Below, piece by piece: positions 38,728 through 61,222 of a stretch of 64,000 nt of DNA; the stretch's first letter is position 1; each line of letters begins with the position of its first letter. Below the pieces are notes generated by a model. The model was not told the DNA's origin, did no database searches, and was given only the letters and a program-made list of their open reading frames with translations. Source of the stretch: Cupriavidus sp. EM10 (GTDB lineage: Bacteria > Pseudomonadota > Gammaproteobacteria > Burkholderiales > Burkholderiaceae); contig NZ_CP076060.1 in assembly GCF_018729255.1 (NCBI RefSeq), positions 1,550,001-1,614,000 of the forward strand, in the 5' to 3' direction. Position numbers and translations under genes: made by a program.

Positions 38728-39789
38728 TTGCCCGAAGCACCGCCGCGCGATCTGCGCCGCGTGCCGATCCATCCCGATTTCTGGTATCCGCTGGCCTGGT
38801 CGCGCGAGGTCAAGGCCGGTCGCGCCCATGGCGTGACGTTCGCCGGCGACCCCATTGTGCTGGTGCGTACCGCCAGCGGCAAGGTGTTCGCGCTGGAAGA
38901 CCGCTGTGCGCACCGCCAGGTGCCGCTGCATGCCGGTGTGGTGGATGGCGAATCGATCCGCTGCTGCTACCACGGCTGGACTTACGACTGCACCGGCCGC
39001 TGCATCGACGTGCCGTACCTGGGCAAGGAGCGCCTGCCCAACGGCGTGCGCGCGTACCCGTGCCAGGAAAAGGCCGGGCTGATTTTCGTGTTCCCGGGCG
39101 ATCCCGGGCTGGCCGAGCAGAAGCCGCTGCCCGACTTTGCCTCGGTGTCGGACCCCAAGTACAAGACGCGCCGGCTGGGCCGCCCGGTCAAGTGCCACTA
39201 CTCGTTCATGCACGAGAACCTGATGGACATGAACCACCAGTTCCTGCACCGCAAGCAGATGGGCATGATGCGCGCGCGCTCGCTGGGCCGGCGCCGGGGC
39301 GACGACTTTGTCGAAGTGGACTACGTGTTCGAGCGCGAAGGCGGCAAGCAGCCGGTGGGCGAGGCGCTGGTGTTCGGCAAGGACGGCGGCCAGAACAACA
39401 AGGACGTGATGACGGTGCGCACCGGCTATCCGTACCAGACGCTGCAGATCCGCTCGGGCTCCGGCACGCTGGTCATGGACCTGTGGATCGTCTACGTGCC
39501 GCTGGACGCCGCGCAGCGCACCAATCGCACGTTCGGCATGCTGTCGATCCGCCGGCCCGGCGTGCCGCTGGTGCTGGACGCGGCGTGGCCGCTGCTGGTC
39601 TGGTTCACCGAGCGGATTTTCAAGGAAGACCGCGAGATCGTGGAGATGGAGCAGGCCGCCCATGACCGCCAGGGCGAGGACTGGAACCACGAGGTCTTCC
39701 CAGTCATCAAGGAATTGCGCGACCTGCTGCGTCAATGCGGCGGCCGTACCGTGATTCCGATCCAGCCCATCCCGGCCGGGCAGGGCTGA
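38728..39789 (+). CDS. Rieske (2Fe-2S) aromatic ring-hydroxylating oxygenase, alpha-subunit-like
   Basis: At least 353 residues. The Rieske cluster ligands are CAHRQVPLH and CCYHGW (about residues 60-83). The mononuclear iron site is in HENLMDMNHQFLH. This is a VanA/PobA-like oxygenase that uses a separate reductase. The TTG at 38728 has no ribosome site. A better N-terminus starts at ATG 38639 (GGAGA 8 bases before) in another frame: MYAESALDRRAS; adding one C to the C5 run at 38719-38723 fuses the two into a 383-residue protein. Substrate unknown; no reductase gene adjacent. Confidence 0.87.
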   Translation: MPEAPPRDLRRVPIHPDFWYPLAWSREVKAGRAHGVTFAGDPIVLVRTASGKVFALEDRCAHRQVPLHAGVVDGESIRCCYHGWTYDCTGRCIDVPYLGKERLPNGVRAYPCQEKAGLIFVFPGDPGLAEQKPLPDFASVSDPKYKTRRLGRPVKCHYSFMHENLMDMNHQFLHRKQMGMMRARSLGRRRGDDFVEVDYVFEREGGKQPVGEALVFGKDGGQNNKDVMTVRTGYPYQTLQIRSGSGTLVMDLWIVYVPLDAAQRTNRTFGMLSIRRPGVPLVLDAAWPLLVWFTERIFKEDREIVEMEQAAHDRQGEDWNHEVFPVIKELRDLLRQCGGRTVIPIQPIPAGQG

Positions 39790-40942: not shown

Positions 40943-41031
40943 TATCGAAAGCATAGCAGCGCGCGGTAAGATCGCCATCGTTGTTTCCGTACATGTCCAT
41001 TGTTCAGGCTGGAACAATCAGGGGAGGGGGC

Positions 41032-42615
41032 ATGATGCAAGTCACGCAAGCTGCGCTTGGCAAGGTGGGACGGCCATTGATGGTGATGCTGGCGCTGCTG
41101 CTGGGCGCTTGCGCCGGGCTGCCGCAAAGGCCCGCCCTGGCGCCGGAAATGGCGCTGCAGGACACCGGCGACACTGCGCTGGCGCGCGGCATGGCGCCGA
41201 AGCTGGCCGCGCATCCGGGGCAGTCAGCCTTCTATCCGCTGCTGTCGGGCACCGACGCGCTGGCGATGCGGATCGCGCTGGTCCGCACCGCCCAGCGCAG
41301 CCTGGACATCCAGTACTACATCTTCGACGCCGACAACACCGGCCTGACGCTGCTGGCCGAGATCATGGCCGCCGCCGACCGGGGCGTGCGGGTGCGGGTG
41401 CTGCTGGACGATATCCACCTGGCCGGGCAGGACGGCGCGCTGTCGGCCGTGGATGCGCATCCCAACGTCGAAGTCCGCGTGTTCAACCCGTTTGCCAGCC
41501 GCGACGTTCGCCTGTTCGAATACGTGACCGATTTCCGGCGCATCAACCGGCGCATGCACAACAAGTCGCTGACGGCCGACAACCAGCTGACCATCGTCGG
41601 CGGCCGCAATATCGGCGACCAGTACTACGGCGCGGCCGATACCGATTTCACCGACCTCGACCTGCTGGCCGCCGGGCCGGCGGTGCCCAGGGTGTCGGCG
41701 GTATTCGACGATTTCTGGAACAGCGAGGCCGTCTATCCGCTGTCGGCCATGGCCAAACCGCTATCTGGCGACGAGGCGGTCACCCAGCAGCAGAAGCTGC
41801 GCAGCTACCTGGACGAGCACGCCGTCAACATGCGCGCCACGCCTTACGGCCAGTCGCTGCTCGATACCGGCATCGTCCAGCTGCTGCGTGAGAACAAGCT
41901 GCCCGAGTACTGGGGCAACGCCACCGTCATCGCCGACCGCGCGGCCAAGGTGCTGCTGCCGCCCGAGGACGATTCCACCCACGCGATTCCGAAGCTGGTG
42001 AAGTTCATGGAAGGGGCGCAGCATGACCTGACGCTGATCTCGCCGTATTTCGTGCCGCCCGATTCGGCCGTGACCTGGCTGGCCGACCTGCAGAAGCGCG
42101 GCGTGCAGGTTCGCATCCTGACCAATTCCTATGGCGCCACGGACGTGTCGGCAGTTCACGCCGGCTACGCGCCGAAGCGCCGCGCACTGCTCAAGGCCGG
42201 CGTGATCCTGTACGAACTGAAGCCCACCGCCTATGCCGAACTGGCCAGGCAGAAGCGCCACCGGGGGCCGGGCGGCAGCAGCCGCGCCAGCCTGCATGCC
42301 AAGACCTATATGGTCGACCGCCACGAACTGTTTATCGGATCGCTGAACCTGGACCCGCGCTCGGCACGGCTCAACACGGAGATGGGAATCATCGTCGACA
42401 GCCAGGAACTGTGCGCCATGCTGGGGCAGGGCGTCGACGAGGCGCTGCTGGACGCGGCCTACCAGGTGGTGCTGGCCGACGACGGGGACTCGCTGCAGTG
42501 GGTCACGCGCGAGGGCGGGGTGCTGCGCACCTACACCAGCGAGCCCGATATGAGCGGCTGGGACAAGTTCAAGCAGGGGGTGCTGCGGATGCTGCCGGTA
42601 GAGGAACAGCTATAG
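41032..42615 (+). CDS. Phospholipase D-family lipoprotein (cardiolipin synthase-like)
   Basis: 527-residue protein with a signal peptide ending in lipobox LLGAC (Cys about residue 24), so it is anchored as a lipoprotein. Two HKD catalytic motifs: HNKSLTADNQLTIVGGRNIG (about 180-200) and HAKTYMVDRHELFIGSLN (about 423-440). This is the ClsC/YmdC subtype, which can transfer phosphatidyl groups between phospholipids. A GGGGAGGGGG ribosome site precedes the ATG at 41032. It converges with the phosphonate operon across a strong terminator. Confidence 0.88.
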   Translation: MMQVTQAALGKVGRPLMVMLALLLGACAGLPQRPALAPEMALQDTGDTALARGMAPKLAAHPGQSAFYPLLSGTDALAMRIALVRTAQRSLDIQYYIFDADNTGLTLLAEIMAAADRGVRVRVLLDDIHLAGQDGALSAVDAHPNVEVRVFNPFASRDVRLFEYVTDFRRINRRMHNKSLTADNQLTIVGGRNIGDQYYGAADTDFTDLDLLAAGPAVPRVSAVFDDFWNSEAVYPLSAMAKPLSGDEAVTQQQKLRSYLDEHAVNMRATPYGQSLLDTGIVQLLRENKLPEYWGNATVIADRAAKVLLPPEDDSTHAIPKLVKFMEGAQHDLTLISPYFVPPDSAVTWLADLQKRGVQVRILTNSYGATDVSAVHAGYAPKRRALLKAGVILYELKPTAYAELARQKRHRGPGGSSRASLHAKTYMVDRHELFIGSLNLDPRSARLNTEMGIIVDSQELCAMLGQGVDEALLDAAYQVVLADDGDSLQWVTREGGVLRTYTSEPDMSGWDKFKQGVLRMLPVEEQL

Positions 42616-42718: not shown

Positions 42719-43786
42719 TCAACGATGCAGCAGTTCGCGGAAGCCGGCGATCAGCCGGTGCATGTCGGCCGCCGTCAGCGCGCCCATGGTCGAAATCCGG
42801 AACAGTTGCGACGACAGGCCGCCCTGGCCGGCATAGATCACGAAGCCGCGCGCCTTGAGGCCGTCGTGCAGTTGCTCGTACGTGACGCCTTGCGGCAGCT
42901 TGTACGCGCGCAGCACCACCGACGACTGCGCCGCCGGCCACAGTGCCTCGATGCCCAGCGCGGCCAGGCCGCTGCGCACTTCCTCGGCCAGCGCGGCGTA
43001 GCGCTGGTGGCGCGCCTGCCAGCCGCCTTCGTCGCTGTGCTCGCGCAGCGCCTCCACCAACGCGTAGAACGCGTGGACAGACGGCGTGAACGGCGTGTTG
43101 CGCTGGTCCTGCTGCCTGGCGTACCGGGCGATGTCGAGGTAGTAGGTCCGGCTGACCGCGTTGGCCAGCGCCGCGCGTCGCACGATCACAAAGGCCGCGC
43201 CGGGCACGCCGTGCAGGCACTTGTTGGCCGTGGCCGCCACGGCGTCGATGTTGCCGCCGAAGTCGATGGCCTCGGCGCCGAAGCTGCTGACCGTATCGGC
43301 CAGCATGCGCACGCCGCGCGCCTGGCACAGCGCGTCGATGGCCGGCAGGTCGTTCAGCCGGCCGGTGGTGGTCTCGTGCTGGATCACCGCCAGGTGGGTG
43401 ATGGCCTTGTCCGCCGCCAGCGCCGCGTCGATGCGGGCCAGGTCCGGGGCTTCCATCCACTCATGCTTCACCACGGCATGCGGGATCTGGTACTGCGTGG
43501 CGATCTGGGCCACGCGCTCGCCATAGACGCCGTTCTGCACGATCAGCAGCTTGCCCTGGGCCGGCACCAGCCCGGCGATCATGCTTTCCAGCGCGGCAGT
43601 GCCCGAACCGGTCATCAGCACGGCCGTCCAGGTGGCCGGGTCCAGCCCGTAGATGTCGAGCAGCCGTTGGCGCGCTTCATCCTGCAGGTCGAAGAACTCG
43701 CTTTCGCGGTGGCACAGGTCCGTTTGCAGCAGGCTCTTGCGGACGCGTTCGGACAGCGTTACGGGGCCGGGATTCAGAAGCAGCAT
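42719..43786 (-). CDS. phnW: 2-aminoethylphosphonate:pyruvate transaminase
   Basis: 355-residue PLP enzyme, class V aminotransferase. The N-terminus MLLLNPGPVTLSERV is characteristic of AEP transaminases. The substrate loop MTGSGTAALESMI, DTVSSFGAEAIDFGG (Asp pairing with the pyridine) and the Schiff-base Lys in ATANKCLHGVPG are intact. PhnW usually degrades AEP, but here it follows PEP mutase and phosphonopyruvate decarboxylase, so it probably works in the biosynthetic direction, converting phosphonoacetaldehyde to 2-aminoethylphosphonate. The start at 43786 is preferred; an ATG at 43834 overlapping the upstream gene is possible. Last gene of the operon. Confidence 0.9.
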   Translation of the reverse strand: MLLLNPGPVTLSERVRKSLLQTDLCHRESEFFDLQDEARQRLLDIYGLDPATWTAVLMTGSGTAALESMIAGLVPAQGKLLIVQNGVYGERVAQIATQYQIPHAVVKHEWMEAPDLARIDAALAADKAITHLAVIQHETTTGRLNDLPAIDALCQARGVRMLADTVSSFGAEAIDFGGNIDAVAATANKCLHGVPGAAFVIVRRAALANAVSRTYYLDIARYARQQDQRNTPFTPSVHAFYALVEALREHSDEGGWQARHQRYAALAEEVRSGLAALGIEALWPAAQSSVVLRAYKLPQGVTYEQLHDGLKARGFVIYAGQGGLSSQLFRISTMGALTAADMHRLIAGFRELLHR

Positions 43787-43817
43787 GCGGTCTCTCAGGC
43801 AGGTTGGACGGGGTGGA

Positions 43818-44999
43818 TCAGGCGTGGTTGGCATTGCCCTGGTCGGCGCCGATCTGGCGGCCCAGGCGGGTGGACACCTGCACCGGCGTCACCGACGGGC
43901 GCGGCAGGTCGTCCGGCGAGCCGGGGCGCGTCTGCAGGCACACGAAATTCGGGCCAGCCGTGGCCGCACGGGCCAGCACGTCGTCGAGCATGGCCAGGTT
44001 GTCGCCCTCGATGGCCGATGCATAGCCGCACGCCGCCGCCACGCCGGCAAACGACACGTTGTGCGACACCGTGGCCTGGCCGCCCGTTGAATCGTGGGCG
44101 TTATTGTCCAGCAGCACGTGCGTCAGGTTGGCCGGCCCATAGGCGCCCAGCGTGGCGAACACGCCCATGCGCATCAGCGCGGCGCCATCGCCATCGACCG
44201 CCACCACCTTCAGGTCCGGACGCGCCAGCGCCAGGCCCAGCGCGAACGGCGTCAGGCAGCCCATCGAGCCCACCATGTAGAGCTGGTTGGGCCGGTCGTC
44301 CAGCGCGTACAGTTCGCGGCCGCAGAAGCCGGTGGAGGCCAGCACCACGGTCGAATCGACCGGCGTATGGGCGATCACGCGCTGCAGCGCCTCGGTGCGG
44401 CTCGGCAGCGTGCCCGCGCCGGTATGGGACAGTTCGGGCAGCGCCTTGTCGCGCGCGATCGGGCCCTTCTGCGACTTCAGCGGGTAGGGCGCGACGCTGC
44501 CCTTCTGCATGATCAGCGCGTAGGGGCGGCCCGTGGCGTCCATATGGGCGATGGCCCGGTCCAGCGCGGGGCCCACGGCCTCCGGCCCGGTCGGGAACAG
44601 CTCCCACGGGATGTCCATCGTGTCCAGCATCTGCGGCGTGACCGGGCCCATCAGCGCGTGCTGGGGTTCGTCCGAGGCACCGCCGGGCTGGCCGCGCCAG
44701 GTGACGATCAGCAGTTGCGGCAGCCGGAACGTCCAGGTCAGCGACGTCAGCGGGCTCACCGCATTGCCCAGGCCCGAGTTCTGCATCATCGTGATGCCGC
44801 GTACGCCGTTCTGGGCGCCTTGCGTCACCCCGGCGATAAACGCCACGGCATCGCCTTCATTGGCCGCCGACACGTAGTGCAGCGACGGGTCCTGCACCAC
44901 GTAGTTGATGAACGGCGTCAGGTACGAGCAGGGCACGCCCGCATACCACGCGAAACCGCGCTCGCGCGCGGCCTCGACAAACTGTACCGCCTCGATCAT
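43818..44999 (-). CDS. ppd: Phosphonopyruvate decarboxylase
   Basis: 393-residue thiamine-diphosphate enzyme. The N-terminal pyrimidine-binding half has [28 protein letters not shown] with the activating Glu and [17 protein letters not shown]. The C-terminal half has [15 protein letters not shown] and the ThDP motif [16 protein letters not shown] through [12 protein letters not shown]. These are the hallmarks of Ppd, which pulls the unfavourable PEP mutase equilibrium forward by making phosphonoacetaldehyde. Presence of Ppd beside PepM is the accepted sign of phosphonate biosynthesis. It overlaps the PepM stop by 4 bp. Confidence 0.94.
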
Positions 45000-46702
45000 T
45001 GCGCGGCCTCGCCGTTACCGACCGCAAACGGCGTCTGGCCGTGCGCGAAATCGCCGGCGCGACGGAAGTCGTCCAGGTCGTTCACGCCGCGCCAGTGGCC
45101 GTGCACGTACTTGACCTCGACCTGTTCGCCGGCGGCCACCAGCGCGTTGAGCAGGTCGGGCAGGTCGAGCTTGTCGAAGTCCGGACGCTGGCGCAGTTCG
45201 ACCAGCAGCTTCTGCAGGCGCGCACGGCCTTCGCCACGGACGTTCATCAGGCCGATCCAGCGGCCATGCGGCGCGTCGCCGGCCGGCACGTCGTCCGAAA
45301 TCTTCTTCAGCAGCACCTTCTGGCCGAACAGGTCGCGGTCGTCCGATGCCGAGCACCAGGCAAAGTCGCGCACGCTCTGGTTCGACGGCGCCGATTCCGA
45401 CGAATCGATCACCACGCTGAACGGCGCATCGGTATCCACCAGGTCGCGCAGGATATAGCTGCGGAACAGCAGGTCGCCGTAGGCGATCACGGTGTCGTTC
45501 TGCAGCGCGTCGGCGGCGGCCGCCAGCGACGCCAGTTCGCCGGTCTCGGCGTAGCGGTCGTTGCGCACCAGGTTGATGCCGGCCGCATCGATGGCCTCGG
45601 CCTTGTAGCCGCCCACCACGGTGATGTCGTTGATGCCCTGGTTCTTGAAGCCGTCCACCAGCCAGCGCAGCAGCGGCTTGCCGGCCACCGGCAGCATGAC
45701 CTTGGGCTTGTCCTCGGTCAGCGCCTCCAGGCCCTTGCCACGGCCCGCGGCCAGCACCACGGCCGAGCCCGGGGCCTGGCCGCCGGTCAGGTAGATCTTT
45801 TCGGCGGCCGAGTATTCGTCGGCATCCTGCAGACGGAAGATCTCGTTGACGGTGGCGATGCGGTCTTCCACGTTCACCAGCGTCTGGTTCTCGTAGATAT
45901 CCTTGGCCACGGCCTGCATGCCCGATGCGGCCACGCGGATCAGGTGGTTGGCCCAGATGATCAGGCTGATGCCGGCCTTGCGGAACACGTCGGTCGGCGT
46001 GCTGTAGTACTTGGTCGGCACGATCACCAGCGGGGCGCGGTTGCCCCACTCGCGGGCGAAGGTCACGATCTCGTCGGCCTTCGACAGCTTGCTGTGGATC
46101 AGGATGGCGTCGGCGCCGGCCTGGTGATAGGCCTCGGCGCGGCGCAGCGCCTCTTCCATGCCCCAGCCGGCGATCAGGGCTTCCACGCGGGCCACGATCG
46201 AGAAATCGTCGTCGGCCTGCGAATCCTTGCCGGCCTTGATCTTGCCGCAGAACTCGTCGATATCGGCCAGCGGCTGCTGCTCGCCGCCGATGAAGCTGTT
46301 GGTCTTCGGGAAGATCTTGTCTTCGATGCAGACGCCGGCAATGCCGCGCTGTTCCAGCTTGCGCACCAGGCGGCGCACGTTGTTGAAGTTGCCGTAGCCG
46401 GTGTCGCCGTCCAGCAGGATCGGCAGGTCGCTGGCGTCGGCCATGAACTCCAGGTTGTCCACCACCTGGGTCCAGCTGGCCTCGTTGTTGTCGCGCACGC
46501 CGAACTGGGCCGAAATGGCCAGGCCCGACGCCCAGATGCCCTTGAAGCCGGCCTCGCGCACGATGCGGGCGGACAGGCCGTTGTGGGCTTCCATGATGAA
46601 TTCGAGCTCGTTCGAGAGCAGCATCTGGCGCAGCCGCGCGGCGCGCGACAGGGGCACCGAGGTACCGGAGGTGGCGAGCAGGTTCGGGTCGATGGCGTTC
46701 AT
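44996..46702 (-). CDS. pepM: Phosphoenolpyruvate mutase fused to a nucleotidyltransferase domain
   Basis: 568-residue fusion. Residues 1-300 are PEP mutase: the signature [10 protein letters not shown] lies at 127-136 and the Mg loop LLDGDTGYG at 97-105. It isomerises PEP to phosphonopyruvate. Residues about 313-568 are a sugar-nucleotidyltransferase-like domain ([20 protein letters not shown], then [12 protein letters not shown]). The usual G-x-G-T/S-R loop reads G-R-G-K-G, so the conserved Arg is missing. YGDLLFR supplies the metal Asp. PepM-NTP fusions are known in phosphonate clusters and are thought to activate the phosphonate with CTP. It overlaps both neighbours by 4 bp. Confidence 0.94.
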
Positions 46703-47454
46703 TGTGCGATTCCTACGGGCAGAAGTTGGGGCAGGACTTCTTCGGCGGCGCGCGAAACGTCGCCGGGGAAATCGATTTCGATCCAGGGGGCGCCGGTCAC
46801 GTCGGCGGTGTCGAACACGTGCGACTGCTCCAGCAGCAGGTCGCGCACGGCTTCCTCGTGCGGCATGTTGGCGCGGCCCGAGTCGACGTAGCCCTTGACG
46901 ATCCCGGCCAGGCGGCGGGCGCAGTCTTCCTTGAAGCGGAAGAAGCCCACCGATTCGCCGATGGTGTCGTATTGCAGGTCGGCCATCAGTTGCTTGCGCA
47001 GTTCCACGGGCACGCCGTCCTGCAGGCACAGCTTGACGGGCTCGTCGCCGGCCTCGAAGTCGCGGTCGATCAGCAGGCGGTTCACGGTGTCGCCGGCCAC
47101 CAGCTTGCTCATGATGCGCTCGTCGTAGAGCACGTCGGCGTCCATCAGCAGCACGTCGCCGCCGCGCGTCATGGCGTCGGCCACGGTGTGCACGGTCAGC
47201 ACGCTGCCCAGGTCATAGCGCGGGTTGATGACGATTTCCAGGTCGCGGCCGATACGGGCCAGCTCTTCCTTGACCTGGTCCGGCTCGAAGCCGAGTGCCA
47301 GCACCACCTCGGTCACGCCGGCGGCGTCGAGCAGGCGCAGGTGGCGTTCCAGCAGCGTGAGCCCGTCAAAGCTCAGCAGGCATTTCGGGAACTGCTTGCC
47401 CGGCTGTTGCTGGAGTCGCAGGCCAAGGCCCGCGGCAAGAATGATTGCTCGCAT
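46699..47454 (-). CDS. Nucleotidyltransferase, phosphocholine cytidylyltransferase-like
   Basis: 251-residue Rossmann-like NTP transferase. The N-terminus [20 protein letters not shown] carries a normal GxGxRL loop, followed by [27 protein letters not shown] supplies the catalytic aspartates. C-terminal [14 protein letters not shown] matches the LicC/PntC-type substrate and metal site. In this operon the likely reaction is CTP plus aminoethylphosphonate to CMP-aminoethylphosphonate; phosphocholine or a sugar phosphate are alternatives. ATG 47454 is chosen over a GTG one codon upstream. Its stop overlaps the pepM start (ATGA). Confidence 0.88.
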
Positions 47455-47487
47455 CACGTTGTTCTCGTTGGATATGAAAGGGCCGCG

Positions 47488-48558
47488 CTAGCCCCGGTCA
47501 GCCGACAGGGCATGCGCGGCGCGACGGCGCTGGAACTTCCGTTCGCTGAAATGCAGGTACACCAGTCCGGGGATGCCGAGCACCAGCTCGCGCACGCGCT
47601 TGGCCAGCGACAGCGCCAGCGCGGCGTCCGGCGGCAGGCCCACCAGCGGCGCCAGCAGCAGGTAGCCGCCTTCCTGCGCCCCCAGCGAGCCCGGAATGGC
47701 AAAGGCGGCGCCCCGGATCGCCTGGCCCACGCTTTCGAGCAACAGTGCCTCGTGCCAGTTCACCGGATGCCCCAGGAAATGCAGGATCAGCCAGACCTCG
47801 CCCGTGCCGGCGATCCAGCCCAGCAGGTTAAGCGCGAAGCTGGCGGCGACCTTTTTCCGGTCGCGATAGAGTTCTCGAATCGCACTGTCCACGGCATCGG
47901 CGCGCAGCGCCAGCCCGGCCCAGCGACCCGTTTTGGCGTTATTGCCATCGCTATTGCCATGGCCATCTCCGATAGCGGCATCCGTGGCCTCGGGGCGCTT
48001 GCCGAACAGTTTCTGGCCAAGGCGCATCATCCGGCCAAACATGCCGCGCCGCTGCAGCACGCAGAATCCCAGTACGCAGGCGCCCAGCACCACGGTCACG
48101 GCGATGATCGGCGTGCGGTACTCGGACATGTCATCGTTCGCGCCGAACACGGCGATACCGAGCAGGGCGAACAGCATCTGAGACAGTGCCTGAGTGGTGG
48201 TGCTGACGGTGATGGCCGCCGCGGCATCGCGCATGCGGGCGCCGCGATGCGACAGGTAGCGCACCATCAGCACTGGACCGCCGATCTGGCCGGCCGGCAG
48301 CAGGCTGTTGACCGATTCCCCGGTCCAGCGCGCCTTGAGCGCGCTGCAGAACGATCCGTGCCGGGTCTTGCGGTCCAGCAGCACGGCGATGGCGCCGGCG
48401 TCCAGCGCCAGCGGCACCAGGTGGAACGCAGCCACCACGGCCAGGCCCCAGCCGGCGGACATCAGCGTGGTGGTCACCGCGCCAAAGCCCTGCCAGGCCA
48501 GCAGCCCGACAAACAGCGCCGCGCCTGCCGACAGAAGAATGAAAGCTGCTCGATTCAC
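47488..48558 (-). CDS. Flippase-like integral membrane protein (LPG_synthase_TM family)
   Basis: 356-residue protein with about eight membrane helices (for example AFILLSAGAALFVGLLAW, GWGLAVVAAFHLVPLAL, TPIIAVTVVLGACVLGFCVL). Characteristic loops SVNSLLPAGQIGGPVLMVRYLS and GQAIRGAAFAIPGSLGAQEG place it in the lysylphosphatidylglycerol-synthase TM / AglD / HpnL group, which are thought to move or transfer lipid-linked groups. GTG 48558 gives MNRAAFILLS; I see no ATG that avoids a large overlap. Within a phosphonate operon that also has a CDP-alcohol phosphatidyltransferase, it could flip the lipid product. Confidence 0.85.
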   Translation of the reverse strand: MNRAAFILLSAGAALFVGLLAWQGFGAVTTTLMSAGWGLAVVAAFHLVPLALDAGAIAVLLDRKTRHGSFCSALKARWTGESVNSLLPAGQIGGPVLMVRYLSHRGARMRDAAAAITVSTTTQALSQMLFALLGIAVFGANDDMSEYRTPIIAVTVVLGACVLGFCVLQRRGMFGRMMRLGQKLFGKRPEATDAAIGDGHGNSDGNNAKTGRWAGLALRADAVDSAIRELYRDRKKVAASFALNLLGWIAGTGEVWLILHFLGHPVNWHEALLLESVGQAIRGAAFAIPGSLGAQEGGYLLLAPLVGLPPDAALALSLAKRVRELVLGIPGLVYLHFSERKFQRRRAAHALSADRG

Positions 48559-48575
48559 GCCGCTGACTACCTCGC

Positions 48576-49388
48576 TTACTTCCCGCCCAGCAGGCGCCGG
48601 AACACCTGCCGGAAACCGAAGTAGGCCACGGCGTCCTTCATGTCGGAGATGAAGCGCAGCCACGGGCGCATGCCCGGATCGGTCACATATTCAAAGGTCA
48701 GCGACACGCGGATCTCGTTCGGGCCGGCCGGCGTGATGCGGTGGCGCAGCTTGTCGCCGTCGAACAGCACGATGCCGCCCGGCGGGATCTGCACGGAGCC
48801 CGGTTCGTCGGGGATGTCGGGGTTGCGCGTATGCAGCTCGTAGTCGAGCCGGCAGGTCGATTCGTCCAGCACGCCGATCAGCAGCGTGTAGCGGCGGCCA
48901 TCGTAGTACGACGTGTCGTAGTGCCAGCCGATATGGTCGCCCTGGCGCGTGTAGTAATAGAGCGCGTAGGCGTGGGGGTCGGATTCCGGGCAAACCTGCA
49001 GCTTGTCGCCGGTCACGGCTTCCAGAAAGCCGATCAGTGCCTTCGAGCGGTACAGCTCGGCGATGAACGGCGCCTTTTCGTCGATGGTGTGGCGGCTGAC
49101 GCTGCCGCCCTGCTTGTGGCCGGGCAGGTAGTTGCGGTTCAGGCCGGCCTGCAGCGAGCGGGCCAGCGCCACCAGCTGCGCGGTTTCGTCCGGGGCCAGG
49201 AATTTGTCCAGGTACAGGAAGGCGCCCTGGCGGTCGAAATCCTGCCGCAGGGCGTGGGTGTCCAGCTGCGCCGTGACGCCGGCCACGGCGGCGTCCGGGC
49301 GGCGGGCGGCCGGACGCGCGGACACGGGTTCGGCTTCGCGCGCCATCTGCGGGGCGATGGCGATGTCGCCGGTAACTTGCTCTGGCAT
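48576..49388 (-). CDS. 2-oxoglutarate/Fe(II)-dependent dioxygenase
   Basis: 270-residue cupin-fold oxygenase. The iron ligands are H and D in HIGWHYDTSYYDG (about residues 155-167) and the distal His in DKLRHRITPAG, with the 2OG-binding Arg in NEIRVSLTFEYV. The N-terminal 40 residues are Ala/Arg-rich and probably disordered. No PhnY similarity that I can name. In this operon it may hydroxylate the phosphonate (for instance at C1 of aminoethylphosphonate) or an acyl chain of the lipid. The gene is 8 bp after the phosphatidyltransferase stop and 17 bp before the flippase. Confidence 0.87.
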   Translation of the reverse strand: MPEQVTGDIAIAPQMAREAEPVSARPAARRPDAAVAGVTAQLDTHALRQDFDRQGAFLYLDKFLAPDETAQLVALARSLQAGLNRNYLPGHKQGGSVSRHTIDEKAPFIAELYRSKALIGFLEAVTGDKLQVCPESDPHAYALYYYTRQGDHIGWHYDTSYYDGRRYTLLIGVLDESTCRLDYELHTRNPDIPDEPGSVQIPPGGIVLFDGDKLRHRITPAGPNEIRVSLTFEYVTDPGMRPWLRFISDMKDAVAYFGFRQVFRRLLGGK

Positions 49389-49396
49389 GGGCTGCC

Positions 49397-50077
49397 TCAG
49401 TGATCGGTGGAGGTTGCGACTGGCTGGGGGCGCCGCATGACTCGCCAGTAATCGATGATGACCAGCACGGCAAACAGCGGCGCGCCGATCGAGGCGGCGG
49501 TCAGGAAGGGACCGATGCCATTGGTCAGCGTCACCAGCGGCAGCAGGTACAGCACGTCTTCGGTCTCGAAACCGCCCGCCGACGCCTGCCTGGTGCCGCT
49601 TTTGCCAACCCGCGATTCTATACGCATGCGCAGGAAGAAGATCAGCGCGACCGCCAGGCCGGCAATCGTGCCGCGCAGCACCGGGCCGAAGACACCCGGT
49701 ACCGCATCGGCCGGTGCCGTGTTGGCCACGGCCATCCCGAAGCTGACAAACAGCAGCACGGTAATCAGCGCATCGCTGGCCAGGTCGTAAAAATGGCCGA
49801 TCTTGCTCGATTTGCCGCTAATTCGCGCCAACTCGCCGTCAGTGTGATCGACAAAATTCGATATCACCACCAGCAGCGCCCCCCAGTTGCTCCACGAGTA
49901 GCCGCCTTGCGCAATGCAGGCAATGCCGGCGACGCCGATCAGCAGGCGCAACGTGGTCAGGTGGTTCGGGGAGACACGGGTGTTCTTGAGGGGCCGCACC
50001 AAATGGCGGGCAATACGGGCATCCCAGGTGGACGGCAAAGGCGGTTCATCCGGGTATTTAGGGGATTTCTGGTTCAT
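49397..50077 (-). CDS. CDP-alcohol phosphatidyltransferase
   Basis: 226-residue membrane enzyme with about six hydrophobic segments. The full CDP-AP signature is present: DGELAR, eight residues, G, three residues, D, three residues, D (DGELARISGKSSKIGHFYD then LASD), which coordinates the metals and CDP. The family joins a CDP-activated alcohol or lipid to an acceptor. Here, as the first gene of the operon with PepM and cytidylyltransferases, the parsimonious reaction is CMP-phosphonate plus diacylglycerol, giving a phosphonolipid and CMP, analogous to ethanolaminephosphotransferase. The alternative is CDP-diacylglycerol as donor. Confidence 0.91.
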   Translation of the reverse strand: MNQKSPKYPDEPPLPSTWDARIARHLVRPLKNTRVSPNHLTTLRLLIGVAGIACIAQGGYSWSNWGALLVVISNFVDHTDGELARISGKSSKIGHFYDLASDALITVLLFVSFGMAVANTAPADAVPGVFGPVLRGTIAGLAVALIFFLRMRIESRVGKSGTRQASAGGFETEDVLYLLPLVTLTNGIGPFLTAASIGAPLFAVLVIIDYWRVMRRPQPVATSTDH

Positions 50078-56783: not shown

Positions 56784-57770
56784 CTAGGCCTTGCGCAGGC
56801 TGCGCCATTCGGCCCACTGCCACGACAGCAGGGCCGGCACGCCGAAGGCAAGTTCACGCGCGCGTTTGAGCAGGGCGAGCGCCAGCGACGTCGGCGGTGC
56901 GACGCCCAGGCCAGTGCCCAGCAGGACAAGCACGGCTTCCTGCACGCCAAGACCGGCGGGGATGAAGAAGACCATCTGCCGGGCCGCCAGCGTCAATGCC
57001 TCGATGGCAAGCGCGTCGCCGAAACTCACGGGATGGCCCAGCAGCGACAGGCCCCACCAGACTTCCAGGGTCCCCACGGCCAGCCCGGCCAACTGCCATG
57101 CCAGCGTGCTCCACAGCACGCGCGAGCACCGGCACAAGGCGCGAATCCGCGCGTCCAGCCGCTTGCCGTCGATCTGCGACGCGAGGCGGTGTTCATGGCC
57201 CAGGATGCGACGTGCCGCCGCTTCGATCCGTGTGAACCATGCGCCCTGCCGCAGCGCATAGGCAAACAGGGCGGGCACCGGCAGCGACAGCAGCAGACCG
57301 ACGCAGACCAGCATGCCGTGGCCGGTGAGCGGTGTTGTCGAGACCAGCAGCAACACGCCCGCCAGTGCGAAGAGATAGTGCGCGAACATCGTCACCATGA
57401 CTTCGATCACCACGCTGGCCGTGACCGCGCTGCCATCGGGTACCCGGCGCCATGCCAGGCGGATGCCGACGATCTCGCCGCCGATGCCGGCGCTTGGCAG
57501 CAACCGCGAAACCGCCTCGCGCACCGTGGCAACCCATAGCAGGAAATGGGTGCCGGCCCGGGCCGCGGGGTCCGCCGGCGCCAGCAGCGTGCGCCATCCG
57601 CGCGCATCGAGCCACAACGCAGCCAGGTGGATCGGCACCAGCCACAGCAACGGCCAGCCGGCGCGTCCCAGCATGGCGCCAACGTCGGCAAGGCCGGTCC
57701 TGGCTACGACGATGGTGAGGATCAGCAAGCCGGCCAGCACGCCCGCCAGCGCAAAGCGTTTCAGCGTCAT
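56784..57770 (-). CDS. hpnL: Hopanoid-cluster membrane protein HpnL
   Basis: 328-residue integral membrane protein with about eight helices (FALAGVLAGLLILTIVVART, HYLFALAGVLLLVSTTP, LVCVGLLLSLPVPALFAYAL). Loop LLPSAGIGGEIVGIRLAW and QMVFFIPAGLGVQEAVLVLL place it in the LPG_synthase_TM family and in the HpnL subgroup that accompanies hopanoid genes. Exact role unknown; lipid transport or transfer is inferred. The start overlaps the hpnK stop by 4 bp. Distant paralogue of the flippase-like gene in the phosphonate operon. Confidence 0.88.
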   Translation of the reverse strand: MTLKRFALAGVLAGLLILTIVVARTGLADVGAMLGRAGWPLLWLVPIHLAALWLDARGWRTLLAPADPAARAGTHFLLWVATVREAVSRLLPSAGIGGEIVGIRLAWRRVPDGSAVTASVVIEVMVTMFAHYLFALAGVLLLVSTTPLTGHGMLVCVGLLLSLPVPALFAYALRQGAWFTRIEAAARRILGHEHRLASQIDGKRLDARIRALCRCSRVLWSTLAWQLAGLAVGTLEVWWGLSLLGHPVSFGDALAIEALTLAARQMVFFIPAGLGVQEAVLVLLGTGLGVAPPTSLALALLKRARELAFGVPALLSWQWAEWRSLRKA

Positions 57771-58588
57771 GCGGCAAGGAGGTCGGCAAAGCCGCCGCGT
57801 CGCGGGGCCACGCGTTCGGCCACGGCGCGCACGCGCGGCGACAGCAGCGCCGCCAGTTCGTCGGCATGCCGATAGCCCGGCATCGACGCGCCGATCCGTG
57901 CGCCCGAACTGACGGCCGGATGGAGATACATTTCCACCACCCCGTGCGGCAGCCGATCGAGCGCGGCAAGCACGGCGGTTTCGTCCATTGCCCCGCTGGA
58001 GGACAACCCGATCACGAAATCGTTGTGAGCAATGCCCGCACGCTCCAGCCGCCGGCGCAGCAAGGCCAGCCACGGGCGCAGGAGCAGGGGGCCGCCAGCC
58101 TCGCGCGGCAGCCGCATGGCCTGCAGGCCAAAGTCGCGGCCAATGCGCAGGATCAGCCCCAGCACCGTGGGGTGCAGGTGGAAGTGCTTGTGGGCGTTCA
58201 CGTGATCGAGCGCCAGGCCGGTGCGCGCGAACGCTTCGAACTGGGCGTGAATTTCAGCGGCCAGTTGCGCGCGCAGCGCGGGATACAGCGCGAATCGCAT
58301 GCCATCGCGCACCATGGCATCGCCAAAGCGGCCATCGATATCGACCAGATCGGGAATCGACTCCCAAGGCAGCGTCGACCAGCCATCGGCCAGCACCAGG
58401 TGCAGGCCCACGCGCAGCCCGGGCAGCCGGTGGGCACGCACCACGGCATCGGCCGTGGATGGCGCACTGATCATCAGGCTGGCGGCATTGAGGATGCCGT
58501 GGCAATGCGCGCGTTCCACGGCCTCGTTGACGTCCTCGTGCAGCCCGAAGTCGTCGGCGGTAACGATCAGCATCCGGCGGCGGGCCAT
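57767..58588 (-). CDS. hpnK: Hopanoid biosynthesis deacetylase HpnK (ChbG/YdjC family)
   Basis: 273-residue carbohydrate deacetylase-like protein. Metal-site residues: IVTADDFGLHEDVN near the N-terminus, VGLHLVLADGW, and DHVNAHKHFHLHP (about residues 125-137). HpnK removes the acetyl group from N-acetylglucosaminyl-bacteriohopanetetrol to give glucosaminyl-BHT. The ATG at 58588 gives MARRRMLIVTADDFG; upstream ATGs would overlap hpnJ. Third of the hpnI-J-K-L operon. Confidence 0.92.
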   Translation of the reverse strand: MARRRMLIVTADDFGLHEDVNEAVERAHCHGILNAASLMISAPSTADAVVRAHRLPGLRVGLHLVLADGWSTLPWESIPDLVDIDGRFGDAMVRDGMRFALYPALRAQLAAEIHAQFEAFARTGLALDHVNAHKHFHLHPTVLGLILRIGRDFGLQAMRLPREAGGPLLLRPWLALLRRRLERAGIAHNDFVIGLSSSGAMDETAVLAALDRLPHGVVEMYLHPAVSSGARIGASMPGYRHADELAALLSPRVRAVAERVAPRRGGFADLLAA

Positions 58589-58592
58589 GGCG

Positions 58593-60014
58593 TCAGACCT
58601 CATGCGACCGCAGGAATCGGAAAAACTCCACGCCTTCACGCAGCCGCCGCCGCGTCATGCTCCAGCTGCCGGCCATTTCCCTGACGATCTCCCAGATCTT
58701 CGACGGCCGGAAGTAGAAGCGCCGGTAGAACATTTCCACGCCGTGATAGATCTCCTCGCGGCTCAGGTGCGGGTAGCTCAGTGCGGCCAGCTGCACGCCC
58801 TGGTCGTTCACCAGGTGTATCACCTTGTTGTCCTCGAGCCAGCCGTTGTCCACGGCCTGCCGGTACAGCGTGGTGCCCGGGTAGGGCGCGGCCAGCGATA
58901 CCTGGATCGTATGGGGATTGATGTCCTTGGCGTAGACGATGGTCTTCTCGATCGTTTCGCGCGTTTCGCCGGGCAGCCCCAGGATGAATGTGCCGTGGAT
59001 CTGGATGCCAAGCTTGCGGCAGTCCTCGGTGAAGCGACGTGCGATGTCGGTACGCAAGCCTTTCTTGATATTCAGAAGAATCTGGTCATCACCGGATTCG
59101 TAACCGACCAGCAGCAGCCGCAGGCCATTGTCCTTCATGATCTTGAGCGTGCTGTACGGCACGTTGGCCTTGGCATTGCACGACCAGGGCAAGCCGATCT
59201 GCCCCAGGCCACGGGCAATCTCTTCGGCGCGCGGCCTGGAATCGGTGAACGTGTCGTCATCGAACATGATCTCGCGCACCTCGGGCATGTTCTCCTTGAT
59301 CCACCTGACCTCGTCGATCACGTTCTGCGCCGACCTGGTGCGATAGCGATGCCCGCCCACGGTCTGCGGCCACAGGCAAAACGTGCAGCGCGACCGGCAG
59401 CCGCGCCCGGTGTAGATCGAGACATAGGGATGCAGCAGGTAGCCGATGAAGTAATTCCGGATCCGCAGGTCGCGCTTGTAGATCGGGGCGACGAATGGCA
59501 ATTCGTCCATATTTTCGATCATCGGTCGCGGCGGGTTGTGCTCGATCATGCCGTCCGGCAGCCGATAGCTGAGCCCGGCGATTTCCTGCAACGGCTTGCC
59601 TGCGGCCACGTCCTGGCAGGTGTAGTCGAATTCCTCGCGACATACGAAATCAATGGCCGTGGTGGCCGCAAGCGTGCCGCCGGGGTCCACGGCGGCCTTG
59701 GCGCCCACCATGCCGATCATCAGGCCGGGCCGCCGCGCCTTGAGTTGCCCGGCGAACCTTGCGTCGGTGGGAAATGACGGCGTGCTGGTGTGGATGATGA
59801 CCAGGTCGTAGTCGACGGCGATATTGAGGGTCTGCTCCACGCCCAGCCCGTCGGCCGGGGCGTCGAGCACGCGGCTGTTGGGCACCAGCGCGGCCGGTTG
59901 CGCCAGCCACGTGGGATACCAGAACGACCTGACTTCGCGCCTGGCCTGGTAGCGCGACCCGGCGCCTCCATCGAACCCGTCGTAGGACGGTGCCTGCAGG
60001 AACAGCGTTTTCAT
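58593..60014 (-). CDS. hpnJ: Hopanoid biosynthesis radical SAM protein HpnJ
   Basis: 473-residue radical SAM enzyme. An N-terminal cobalamin-binding-like half (about residues 1-170; DLVIIHTSTPSFPTD, GLMIGMVGAKAAVD) precedes the SAM barrel. The CxxxCxxC cluster motif is GCRSRCTFCLWP (about residues 208-219), then FDDDTFTD and LVGYESGDDQIL, HGTFILGLPGET. HpnJ catalyses ring contraction of glucosaminyl-BHT to BHT cyclitol ether. It starts within the hpnI stop (ATGA overlap) and ends 4 bp before hpnK. Confidence 0.94.
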   Translation of the reverse strand: MKTLFLQAPSYDGFDGGAGSRYQARREVRSFWYPTWLAQPAALVPNSRVLDAPADGLGVEQTLNIAVDYDLVIIHTSTPSFPTDARFAGQLKARRPGLMIGMVGAKAAVDPGGTLAATTAIDFVCREEFDYTCQDVAAGKPLQEIAGLSYRLPDGMIEHNPPRPMIENMDELPFVAPIYKRDLRIRNYFIGYLLHPYVSIYTGRGCRSRCTFCLWPQTVGGHRYRTRSAQNVIDEVRWIKENMPEVREIMFDDDTFTDSRPRAEEIARGLGQIGLPWSCNAKANVPYSTLKIMKDNGLRLLLVGYESGDDQILLNIKKGLRTDIARRFTEDCRKLGIQIHGTFILGLPGETRETIEKTIVYAKDINPHTIQVSLAAPYPGTTLYRQAVDNGWLEDNKVIHLVNDQGVQLAALSYPHLSREEIYHGVEMFYRRFYFRPSKIWEIVREMAGSWSMTRRRLREGVEFFRFLRSHEV

Positions 60015-61222
60015 CGTGTCTTGTCCTGTGGATGCGGATGGGAGGACGCCACCAGGCTGCCGCCCAGGGCGCGCGGCATCGTCGCGGGGGACATGCCGGG
60101 ACGGCCGCCCGGCGCCTCTGCCGTCGCTGGCAGGCCGGGGCTGTCGATGGTGGTCATCACGTGGCCACGCCAATGCACGTGCCCGTTGCCCAGCGCGGCC
60201 ACCCATTCGGCCAGCAGCAACGCGTCGCGCAGCGGTGCCATCACGGCCCTGGCCGGGCTGCCGGCCATGGCGCATCGCGCCAGCGCCCCGGCCAGGGCGA
60301 TCGCAAACACCACAGGCAGCGGGGCCAGCAGGCAGCCCAGCAGCAGCATCGGCCACGTGAACGTGACGAACATGAAATGGAAGCCGGGCGCGCTCAGCGA
60401 CCGGATCGTGCGCAGCCACCGCAACTCGTGGCGCCACAGCGCGGGCAGGCTGGTTTCGATCACATCGGTCTCCACGACCATTTCGGACAGCACGGTTTGC
60501 CAGCCCGACTGGCGCGTGAGCTCGGCCAGCCAGAAATCGTCGGCCAGGCGGTTGGCCAGCGCGTGGAAGCCGCCGACGGCGTTGAGCGTGTCGCGCCGCA
60601 GTGCGATCGTCGCGCCAAAGCCGAAACGCCGCGAGCCACCGGCATGGGCCACGCGCACGGACGGCAGGAACCAGTCGTCGATGAACGCGGCGCCCAGCCT
60701 GGACCAGACGTTGTCGACCGACCGGCCCCGATACAGGCACGTCACCACGCCGACGTGCGGATCGCTCAGTGGGCCCGCCAGACGCTGCAGGTAATCGGGC
60801 GGCACCGCGATATCGCTGTCGGCAATGACCAGGTGGTCGTGCCGGGCGGCCCGGTAAAGGTTGATCAGGTTCGAGACTTTGGGATTTCGGCCATGGATGC
60901 GCGCATCGATGACCAGTGCGATATCGCAGTCGGGGAATTCCGCCTGCAGCCGTTGCACGACGCCGATGGCCGGGTCGTCGGCGGCACTGACCCCGAAGAC
61001 CAGTTGAAAGCAGGGATGCTGCTGACGGCAGATTGCCACCAGGTTGTCGTAGAGGCGCGGCTCCGCGCCACACAGCGGCTTGAGCACCGAGACGGGCGCA
61101 AAGTGCCGCGGCAACGTGCAAGGTTGCGTGCTGCGGCGGCCGACGCTTGCGGCGACGATGGCATACACCGTGCCGGCTTCCACCAGCAGTTGGCCCACCG
61201 TAGCTGTCCAGACCGCGCTCAT
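60011..61222 (-). CDS. hpnI: Hopanoid biosynthesis glycosyltransferase HpnI
   Basis: 403-residue membrane-associated GT2 glycosyltransferase of the ceramide-glucosyltransferase-like group. N-terminal membrane helix, then VSVLKPLCGAEPRLYDNL, NPKVSNLINLYRAARHDHLV, DSDIAVPPDYL (D-x-D), and RLADDFWLAELTRQSGW (acceptor-site D and QxxRW-type region follow in LRWLRTIRS). C-terminal helices end at about residue 330; a Pro/Ser-rich tail follows. HpnI attaches N-acetylglucosamine to bacteriohopanetetrol. First gene of the operon; the squalene-hopene cyclase genes are not in this window. Confidence 0.92.
   Translation of the reverse strand: MSAVWTATVGQLLVEAGTVYAIVAASVGRRSTQPCTLPRHFAPVSVLKPLCGAEPRLYDNLVAICRQQHPCFQLVFGVSAADDPAIGVVQRLQAEFPDCDIALVIDARIHGRNPKVSNLINLYRAARHDHLVIADSDIAVPPDYLQRLAGPLSDPHVGVVTCLYRGRSVDNVWSRLGAAFIDDWFLPSVRVAHAGGSRRFGFGATIALRRDTLNAVGGFHALANRLADDFWLAELTRQSGWQTVLSEMVVETDVIETSLPALWRHELRWLRTIRSLSAPGFHFMFVTFTWPMLLLGCLLAPLPVVFAIALAGALARCAMAGSPARAVMAPLRDALLLAEWVAALGNGHVHWRGHVMTTIDSPGLPATAEAPGGRPGMSPATMPRALGGSLVASSHPHPQDKTR

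Follow-up and report, generated by a model that had tools for sequence, protein, structure and literature searches.

Hopanoids, the bacterial counterparts of cholesterol, are both membrane stabilisers and molecular fossils. In the hpnI/hpnK/hpnJ cyclitol ether pathway their side chain is decorated with a sugar headgroup by a glycosyltransferase, a deacetylase and a radical SAM protein (PMC12583986). Among phosphonate gene clusters, Rice et al. 2019 established the cytidylyltransferase PntC (Pnt clusters of Treponema denticola and Atopobium rimae) as well as fusions of phosphoenolpyruvate (PEP) mutase (PepM) with a nucleotidyltransferase, cell-surface phosphonoglycans and phosphonolipids being the expected products (PMC6697681). 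A 2021 survey of Acetobacteraceae then reported that in Roseomonas the squalene-hopene cyclase gene shc and pepM are linked, and proposed a terpene-phosphonate still to be discovered; credit for the idea in Acetobacteraceae belongs there (PMC8776678). Here we describe a seven-gene operon at positions 42719-50077 of a 64,000-nucleotide stretch (the window) from the 6.66 Mb genome of Cupriavidus sp. EM10 (contig NZ_CP076060.1), and suggest from its sequence that it builds a hopanoid with a phosphonate headgroup, a reading to which we give a probability of roughly 0.58. Similar to the Pnt clusters, the operon encodes PepM, phosphonopyruvate decarboxylase (Ppd), a 2-aminoethylphosphonate (AEP) transaminase and a PF12804 cytidylyltransferase, and has a PepM-PF12804 fusion; however, the Cupriavidus set is completed by a CDP-alcohol phosphotransferase (CDPPT), the membrane protein HpnL and an oxygenase, and its fused domain is without the Arg on which most of the activity of the T. 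denticola enzyme (Tde-PntC) depends. Similar to the cyclitol ether pathway, it would decorate the hopanoid side chain and has hpnL alongside, both operons lying in the window, although the proposed headgroup is a phosphonate activated with cytidine monophosphate (CMP) and attached by CDPPT. The Roseomonas clusters likewise hold both hallmark genes together, and the run in R. marmotae adds CDPPT, a stand-alone nucleotidyltransferase (NTP2) and HpnL, whereas the part of the survey at hand, on Acetobacteraceae only, names no transferase, acceptor or HpnL.

The seven genes lie on the minus strand and run from 50077 down to 42719, NTP1 being the PepM-fused nucleotidyltransferase domain:

49397..50077, minus strand, CDPPT, 226 aa, PF01066 match
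48576..49388, minus strand, 2-oxoglutarate (2OG)-Fe(II) oxygenase of the HalD/BesD family, 270 aa, PF23169 at 45.1 bits
47488..48558, minus strand, HpnL-family membrane protein (LPG_synthase_TM), TIGR03476 at 329.7 bits (cut-off 195.65)
46699..47457, minus strand, NTP2, a PntC/LicC-like cytidylyltransferase, 252 aa, PF12804 match
44996..46702, minus strand, PEP mutase (residues 1 to about 305) fused to NTP1, TIGR02320 at 404.3 bits (cut-off 319.55)
43818..44999, minus strand, Ppd, phosphonopyruvate decarboxylase, TIGR03297 at 435.3 bits (cut-off 312.5)
42719..43834, minus strand, 2-aminoethylphosphonate aminotransferase, TIGR03301 (PhnW/AepZ) at 410.8 bits (cut-off 360.8)

An initial annotation of this DNA had described the same operon, and most of its reading of the parts holds: the order and strand are confirmed, the PEP mutase has its EDKxxxxxNS motif and scores over its cut-off, Ppd and the AEP-type transaminase are both above their curated cut-offs, and the two nucleotidyltransferase domains correspond to PF12804 matches in two proteins, NTP2 and the PepM fusion. 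The CDP-alcohol signature that it gave is complete as D-D-G-A-R-G-D-D, and the LPG_synthase_TM class of the membrane protein stands, refined here to HpnL specifically; the hpnL open reading frame (ORF) is open from 48663, but GTG at 48558 is the most likely start. For the transaminase the probable start is 43786, inside the ORF 42719..43834. With these two starts revised, adjacent genes overlap by 4 bp or stand 8 to 31 bp apart.

PepM, Ppd and the transaminase almost certainly make AEP, judging by their family assignments. The PEP mutase part matches PDB 1m1b (E 7.7e-130), and EDKxxxxxNS is found in 91/91 distinct PepM sequences from the loci that we fetched for comparison (L numbers below denote such loci, G numbers genomes). 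Activation of AEP with CMP is also very probable from the sequences, and NTP2 rather than NTP1 is the likely cytidylyltransferase. In Tde-PntC the motif GXG(T/S)RX4-8PK contains an Arg and a Lys whose alanine mutants retain <10% activity (PMC6697681). Both residues are present in 87/87 distinct NTP2 sequences of the fetched loci, the window NTP2 having Leu at the T/S position, and the best PDB sequence match of this protein is T. denticola PntC itself (6pd1, residues 3-245, nearly full length). In NTP1 the Arg of GxGxR is missing and the Lys retained in 91/91 distinct sequences. It is the intact Arg/Lys pair together with PntC as best relative that leads us to favour NTP2. The state of NTP1 (window 44999-45802) also bears on PepM fusions that are presumed to be active PntCs. 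A triple NTP2-PepM-NTP1 fusion, suspected in Caballeronia from long matches, was dropped, as the coordinates place NTP2 and PepM in different frames.

Relatives of the operon were gathered by a search with the PepM fusion, one genome per species, of which the best 80 of 369 were kept; the nearest fusions, 98 to 99% identical, belong to Ralstonia sp. 25mfcol4.1, Cupriavidus sp. U2 and C. pauculus UM1. CDPPT, oxygenase, HpnL, NTP2, PepM-NTP1 and Ppd form one locus in the same order in 46/80, which argues that this order is not due to chance, and 43 loci have the transaminase as well; it was not found in the fetched stretch of L073, L074, L079 or L066 (the L066 stretch ends early). The remaining 34 loci, 28 titled Paraburkholderia and 6 Burkholderia sp., show no CDPPT in the PepM stretch. 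In these split genomes CDPPT occurs elsewhere in 33/33 searched (that of L024 was left out), with the oxygenase immediately beside it in 33/33, and wherever such a second locus was fetched at length (20 of the 33) the order CDPPT-oxygenase-HpnL-NTP2 was seen (20/20). Moreover, when 200 Burkholderiales genomes were drawn evenly, the 7 with a CDPPT match (E <= 1e-15) proved to be precisely the 7 with a PepM-NTP1 match (E <= 1e-80), and the other 193 have neither (hypergeometric probability 4e-13, kinship ignored). Since the same genomes carry both, and split genomes keep both, we infer that CDPPT and PepM-NTP1 serve one product. Six of the split genomes have two copies of NTP2, one ahead of PepM and one in the CDPPT locus (L022 paired with L133, L023 with L127, L025 with L134, L027 with L136, L028 with L135 and L072 with L130). 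Directly downstream of the Cupriavidus operon, on the opposite strand, lies a gene for a phospholipase-D-family protein (PF13091, window 40981-42615, plus strand) that is kept in several Cupriavidus loci.

The constancy of CDPPT bears on a different fate for CMP-AEP, in which its phosphonate would end up on a polysaccharide or on a lipid-A sugar, giving a phosphonoglycan or other surface decoration. Rice et al. assign the majority of PepM clusters to cell-surface tailoring (PMC6697681), some distant PepM-fusion loci keep other company (L181, for instance, has a PF01467 protein, an Fe-alcohol dehydrogenase and, at a distance of some kb, a PF01066 protein), and in L163 an ORF that by eye resembles a heptosyltransferase is found past the Rieske oxygenase gene. 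However, neither the operon nor its split form contains a glycosyltransferase or LicD-type gene, where the flanking ORFs were mostly read by eye and in part scanned against families, and no Burkholderiales carrier searched is without CDPPT (present in 7/7 in the draw, 33/33 among split genomes). We therefore rejected a glycan fate, which we consider highly improbable. The same counts support the dedicated phosphonate-to-lipid pathway of the initial annotation, and the replacement of the phosphatidyltransferase by glycosyltransferases that it had named as grounds for abandoning such a pathway was not seen in Burkholderiales; outside this order, PepM-NTP1 fusions with different neighbours do exist.

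CDPPT itself has the motif DxxDGxxAR(x8)GxxxDxxxD and the fold of its family, with all eight signature residues in 95/96 distinct sequences from the fetched loci; the transferase is also recorded for Cupriavidus metallidurans. Its structural model (predicted local distance difference test, pLDDT, 81.9) aligns best with AF2299, phosphatidylinositol phosphate synthases and IPCT-DIPPS, and then with choline/ethanolamine phosphotransferases, and we hold with good confidence that its acceptor is a lipid alcohol. IPCT-DIPPS and phosphatidylinositol phosphate synthase, which are among the nearest folds, similarly involve a nucleotidyltransferase and a CDP-alcohol phosphotransferase, although their polar group is inositol phosphate and not the aminophosphonate proposed for the Cupriavidus operon. 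A second CDP-alcohol phosphotransferase, 37% identical to the window CDPPT, is encoded next to the cluster in L161 (12895-13797, genome G114), with a Rieske oxygenase gene separating the two.

For the identity of this lipid alcohol, the initial annotation had proposed diacylglycerol, such that a phosphonate would replace phosphoethanolamine. In that case CDPPT would move AEP or hydroxy-AEP to diacylglycerol, giving an analogue of phosphatidylethanolamine, and hopanoid genes would be neighbours through the shared membrane only. We consider this unlikely, as it leaves unexplained three sets of observations that lead us to favour bacteriohopanepolyol instead: the presence of squalene-hopene cyclase in carriers, the membership of HpnL in the operon, and the continuity of the cluster with hopanoid genes. 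All 15 carrier genomes chosen for testing have the cyclase (15/15), two of them (G509, G560) outside Burkholderiales. Among the 200 Burkholderiales some cyclase match was found in 30 and a full-strength one (E < 1e-100) in 19, and all 7 carriers fall within these 19 (chance 2e-8 ignoring kinship, or about 0.001 when counted by family, assuming 49 families in all). HpnL belongs to a family that accompanies hopanoid genes and whose function is not established according to a 2025 paper (PMC12583986). The Cupriavidus genome has two cyclase loci (G000:C2:192271-193247 and C2:565127-566095), and the match at the second, 460.3 bits, identifies it as a hopanoid producer. Taken together these observations make a hopanoid the probable acceptor, and the initial annotation is upheld for the route from phosphonate to lipid and not for diacylglycerol; it had also left the oxygenase unassigned and overlooked the following four genes of the window:

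60011..61222, minus strand, hpnI, bacteriohopanetetrol glucosamine glycosyltransferase, TIGR03472 at 468.2 bits (cut-off 310)
58593..60014, minus strand, hpnJ, hopanoid radical SAM protein (cyclitol ether formation), TIGR03471 at 830.8 bits (cut-off 577.6)
57767..58639, minus strand, hpnK, hopanoid-associated deacetylase, TIGR03473 at 394.9 bits (cut-off 232.6)
56784..57806, minus strand, second hpnL, 29% identical to the operon hpnL, TIGR03476 at 307.7 bits (cut-off 195.65)

This run (61222-56784) is on the same strand as the phosphonate operon and 6.7 kb upstream of CDPPT, and Cupriavidus therefore has two hpnL-bearing operons, one of which is the known hopanoid sugar-headgroup set. The run is a further pointer to a hopanoid acceptor, and its position would also suit an acceptor that is an already decorated hopanoid, with the phosphonate placed on the product of hpnI, hpnK and hpnJ, bacteriohopanetetrol glucosamine or cyclitol ether; genome G114 likewise combines the phosphonate cluster (L161) with hpnI-, hpnJ- and hpnK-like genes (L203). 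However, no hpnI or hpnK match was found beside the cluster in the other loci examined, the radical SAM genes near PepM in L180, L181 and L183 are only weak hpnJ-like matches (24 to 27%), and none of hpnI/J/K is annotated in the R. marmotae stretch, so that we regard a decorated acceptor as quite unlikely.

The continuity with hopanoid genes, which favours a bacteriohopanepolyol, is seen in loci where the phosphonate cluster runs on into them. On plasmid p1318-3 of Roseomonas marmotae a single stretch holds HpnN, a polyprenyl synthetase, NTP2, PepM, Ppd, HpnL (259.6 bits), the transaminase and CDPPT, and onward ispH, hpnH, a hopanoid-associated phosphorylase, shc, hpnE, hpnD, hpnC, a glycosyltransferase and hpnA. 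In Pandoraea, where hpnN, hpnM and ispH were called by tblastn identity, dxs and/or hpnN follow the transaminase in 14/14 loci, an hpnM-like gene and ispH are also present in 12/14 within the fetched stretch, and L071 continues to hpnH and hpnA. Mycetohabitans rhizoxinica, with a complete cluster, has a Pandoraea-like layout (dxs, hpnN at 1242.8 bits with a cut-off of 1100, an hpnM-like gene and ispH), and one contig of G125 carries hpnH, shc, hpnN, an hpnM-like gene and hpnL, then the transaminase, Ppd, PepM, NTP2, a PhyH protein and CDPPT. Smaller contacts are an hpnM-like gene after the transaminase in two C. basilensis loci (L020, L075) and, in G560, an hpnN-like gene adjacent to CDPPT and to an HpnL-like gene. 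The hopanoid part may itself be modified by a Rieske oxygenase encoded in the window (38728-39789, plus strand), which resembles the 4beta-methylsterol monooxygenase SdmA at 189.9 bits, below the cut-off of 600; its gene is found a few kb after the transaminase in 7 loci out of the 80, each titled Cupriavidus or Ralstonia, and a homologue with 56% identity adjoins CDPPT in L161 and L163.

Several observations weigh against a phosphonate-headgroup hopanoid. No hpn gene at all lies in the flanks of about 5 to 9 kb in 27 of the 43 complete loci among the 80. Queries from the hopanoid run match in 23 of 124 loci (those >6 kb with PepM or CDPPT), 14 of these being Pandoraea and one, L187, MlaA-like only, and in none of the 20 second loci L123-L142. 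The shc loci of the Cupriavidus genome are on a different contig from the operon. No hpn gene, hpnIJKL included, was seen in the stretches fetched on either side of the cluster in G191, G539 and G152, and the hpnIJKL neighbourhood may therefore be peculiar to this Cupriavidus group. The linkage in Pandoraea and Mycetohabitans is probably one shared event, with HpnM in Mycetohabitans, like HpnN and HpnM in G125, scoring below cut-off, and the R. marmotae run is without the oxygenase. Squalene-hopene cyclase and the cluster could both be markers of one life style. The closest solved relatives of CDPPT are inositol-phosphate synthases, not hopanoid enzymes. Among 398 Pseudomonadota, CDPPT matches were found in 15 and PepM-fusion matches in 17, with both in 7, leaving 8 in which the CDPPT, a more distant one, comes without this PepM, and 10 in which the PepM match comes without CDPPT; four of these ten (G341, G349, G399, G482) have a full-length fusion, and loci fetched from three of the four have other company around it. 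Finally, a 2025 inventory of 63 hopanoid derivatives of Alphaproteobacteria, in five types, has no phosphonate and none with phosphorus in the part of the source at hand (PMC12583986).

The oxygenase may tell us what the headgroup looks like. Its best PDB sequence match is BesD, and its predicted structure (pLDDT 78) matches HalB/HalD and a lysine hydroxylase; by their structure titles the solved relatives act on free lysine or ornithine. In halogenases of the HalD/BesD family Gly or Ala replaces the metal-binding Asp. We dropped halogenase activity since the H-x-D...H triad is intact in 79/79 distinct sequences from the fetched loci, which is the hydroxylase type. To our knowledge this would be the first enzyme of the family to act on a phosphonate. 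Three of the seven cluster-bearing Burkholderiales genomes in the 200-genome draw are without it, and in all three loci (L161, L162, L163) a PhyH protein lies between NTP2 and CDPPT. The best NCBIfam profile of the L161 protein is the PhnY methylphosphonate hydroxylase (NF052437, 199.5 bits, E 6.6e-59, below the cut-off of 500), followed by ectoine hydroxylase at 44.1 bits; this likeness was found by a profile scan of the L161 protein alone, the L162 and L163 proteins being its homologues. No phosphonate hydroxylase is among the PDB sequence matches of the PhyH protein, and the idea that it is kin to a solved PhnY* was dropped, the kinship being seen in the sub-cut-off NCBIfam profile only. 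A PhyH homologue (44%) also adjoins NTP2 in G560, and a more distant oxygenase relative (34%) occurs in G199, where the other cluster genes are absent.

That two hydroxylase families swap within one operon suggests a shared reaction, hydroxylation of the phosphonate, and we think it somewhat more probable than otherwise that the oxygenase acts on the headgroup. PhnY* yields (R)-1-hydroxy-AEP during phosphonate breakdown (PMC8154272), and the PhnY-like replacement of the oxygenase suggests that the headgroup would be 1-hydroxy-AEP. The proposed step, C1 hydroxylation of AEP, would thus be that of PhnY*, with a PhnY-like protein replacing the oxygenase in three Burkholderiales clusters; the window enzyme differs in belonging to the HalD/BesD family and in having no PhnZ among its seven genes. 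As the Roseomonas run has no oxygenase, headgroup hydroxylation is probably not universal. The same headgroup is reported on a sphingolipid in Bdellovibrio stolpii, a report cited in PMC8154272, and the Cupriavidus product could in principle be a sphingophosphonolipid as well. A distant PepM locus, L182 (5188-6531 and 3167-4285), has the PepM-NTP1 fusion, Ppd and the transaminase near a serine-palmitoyltransferase-like gene (278.8 bits, below the cut-off of 500) and an ORF that by eye resembles inositol-phosphate synthase, and is a possible sphingophosphonolipid locus. However, the cut-off of the serine palmitoyltransferase profile NF047599 was reached in 0/16 genomes, with a best score of 300.8 bits against 500 in the Cupriavidus genome. 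We rejected a sphingolipid acceptor on this ground and give it next to no weight.

A phosphonate-headgroup hopanoid would then be made as follows. PepM would convert PEP to phosphonopyruvate, Ppd would convert this to phosphonoacetaldehyde and the transaminase would yield AEP. The 2OG-Fe oxygenase would hydroxylate the phosphonate, most likely at C1, to give 1-hydroxy-AEP, before or after activation, and NTP2, for which the PntC similarity and the motif residues argue strongly, would form CMP-AEP or CMP-hydroxy-AEP. CDPPT would then take the (hydroxy)AEP over from CMP and attach it to a C35 bacteriohopanepolyol at one of its hydroxyls, probably the terminal hydroxyl in bacteriohopanetetrol, and HpnL may carry or flip the product outward, with HpnN/HpnM acting beyond.

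A parallel lineage is consistent with a wider use of such a scheme. A CDPPT relative with 29 to 32% identity is found in eight genomes of family f79, seven of which have an inositol-phosphate-synthase-like motif on the stretch that carries it (L189-L191, L196, L198-L200); the one synthase-like gene scanned scored 455.4 bits with TIGR03450, below the cut-off of 638. In G352 (L195, L190) the company of the CDPPT relative and the synthase-like gene includes shc, hpnN, hpnA and hpnL; an hpnL is present in L196 too. Members of f79 may thus decorate hopanoids similarly, with inositol phosphate in place of AEP. At present we can put forward the combined picture only tentatively, at a little under even odds: phosphonohopanoids in Burkholderiales and some Acetobacteraceae with a (1-hydroxy-)AEP headgroup, HpnL as a flippase for headgroup-bearing hopanoids, and phosphoinositol hopanoids in f79 made through the transferase and HpnL.

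New in this picture are the extension to Burkholderiales, the full enzyme set with a proposed acceptor, the suggested role of HpnL, the doubt on NTP1 and the predicted 1-hydroxy headgroup. Beyond the 2021 survey (PMC8776678), no study joining hopanoids with AEP or PEP mutase is among the matches listed, the combination of hopanoid with CDP-alcohol phosphotransferase not having been searched, and the only literature match pairing hopanoid with phosphonolipid concerns Hedgehog signalling. Zwitterionic hopanoids could escape notice where samples are derivatised prior to analysis. If our reading is true, the operon would provide a biosynthetic source of 1-hydroxy-AEP, a compound that may be rather abundant in places to judge from the frequency of a degradative enzyme (PMC8154272). 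It would also offer a role for HpnL, give a complete gene set leading from PEP to a bacterial phosphonolipid, and define a new class of hopanoids that carry a charged, hydrolysis-resistant headgroup.

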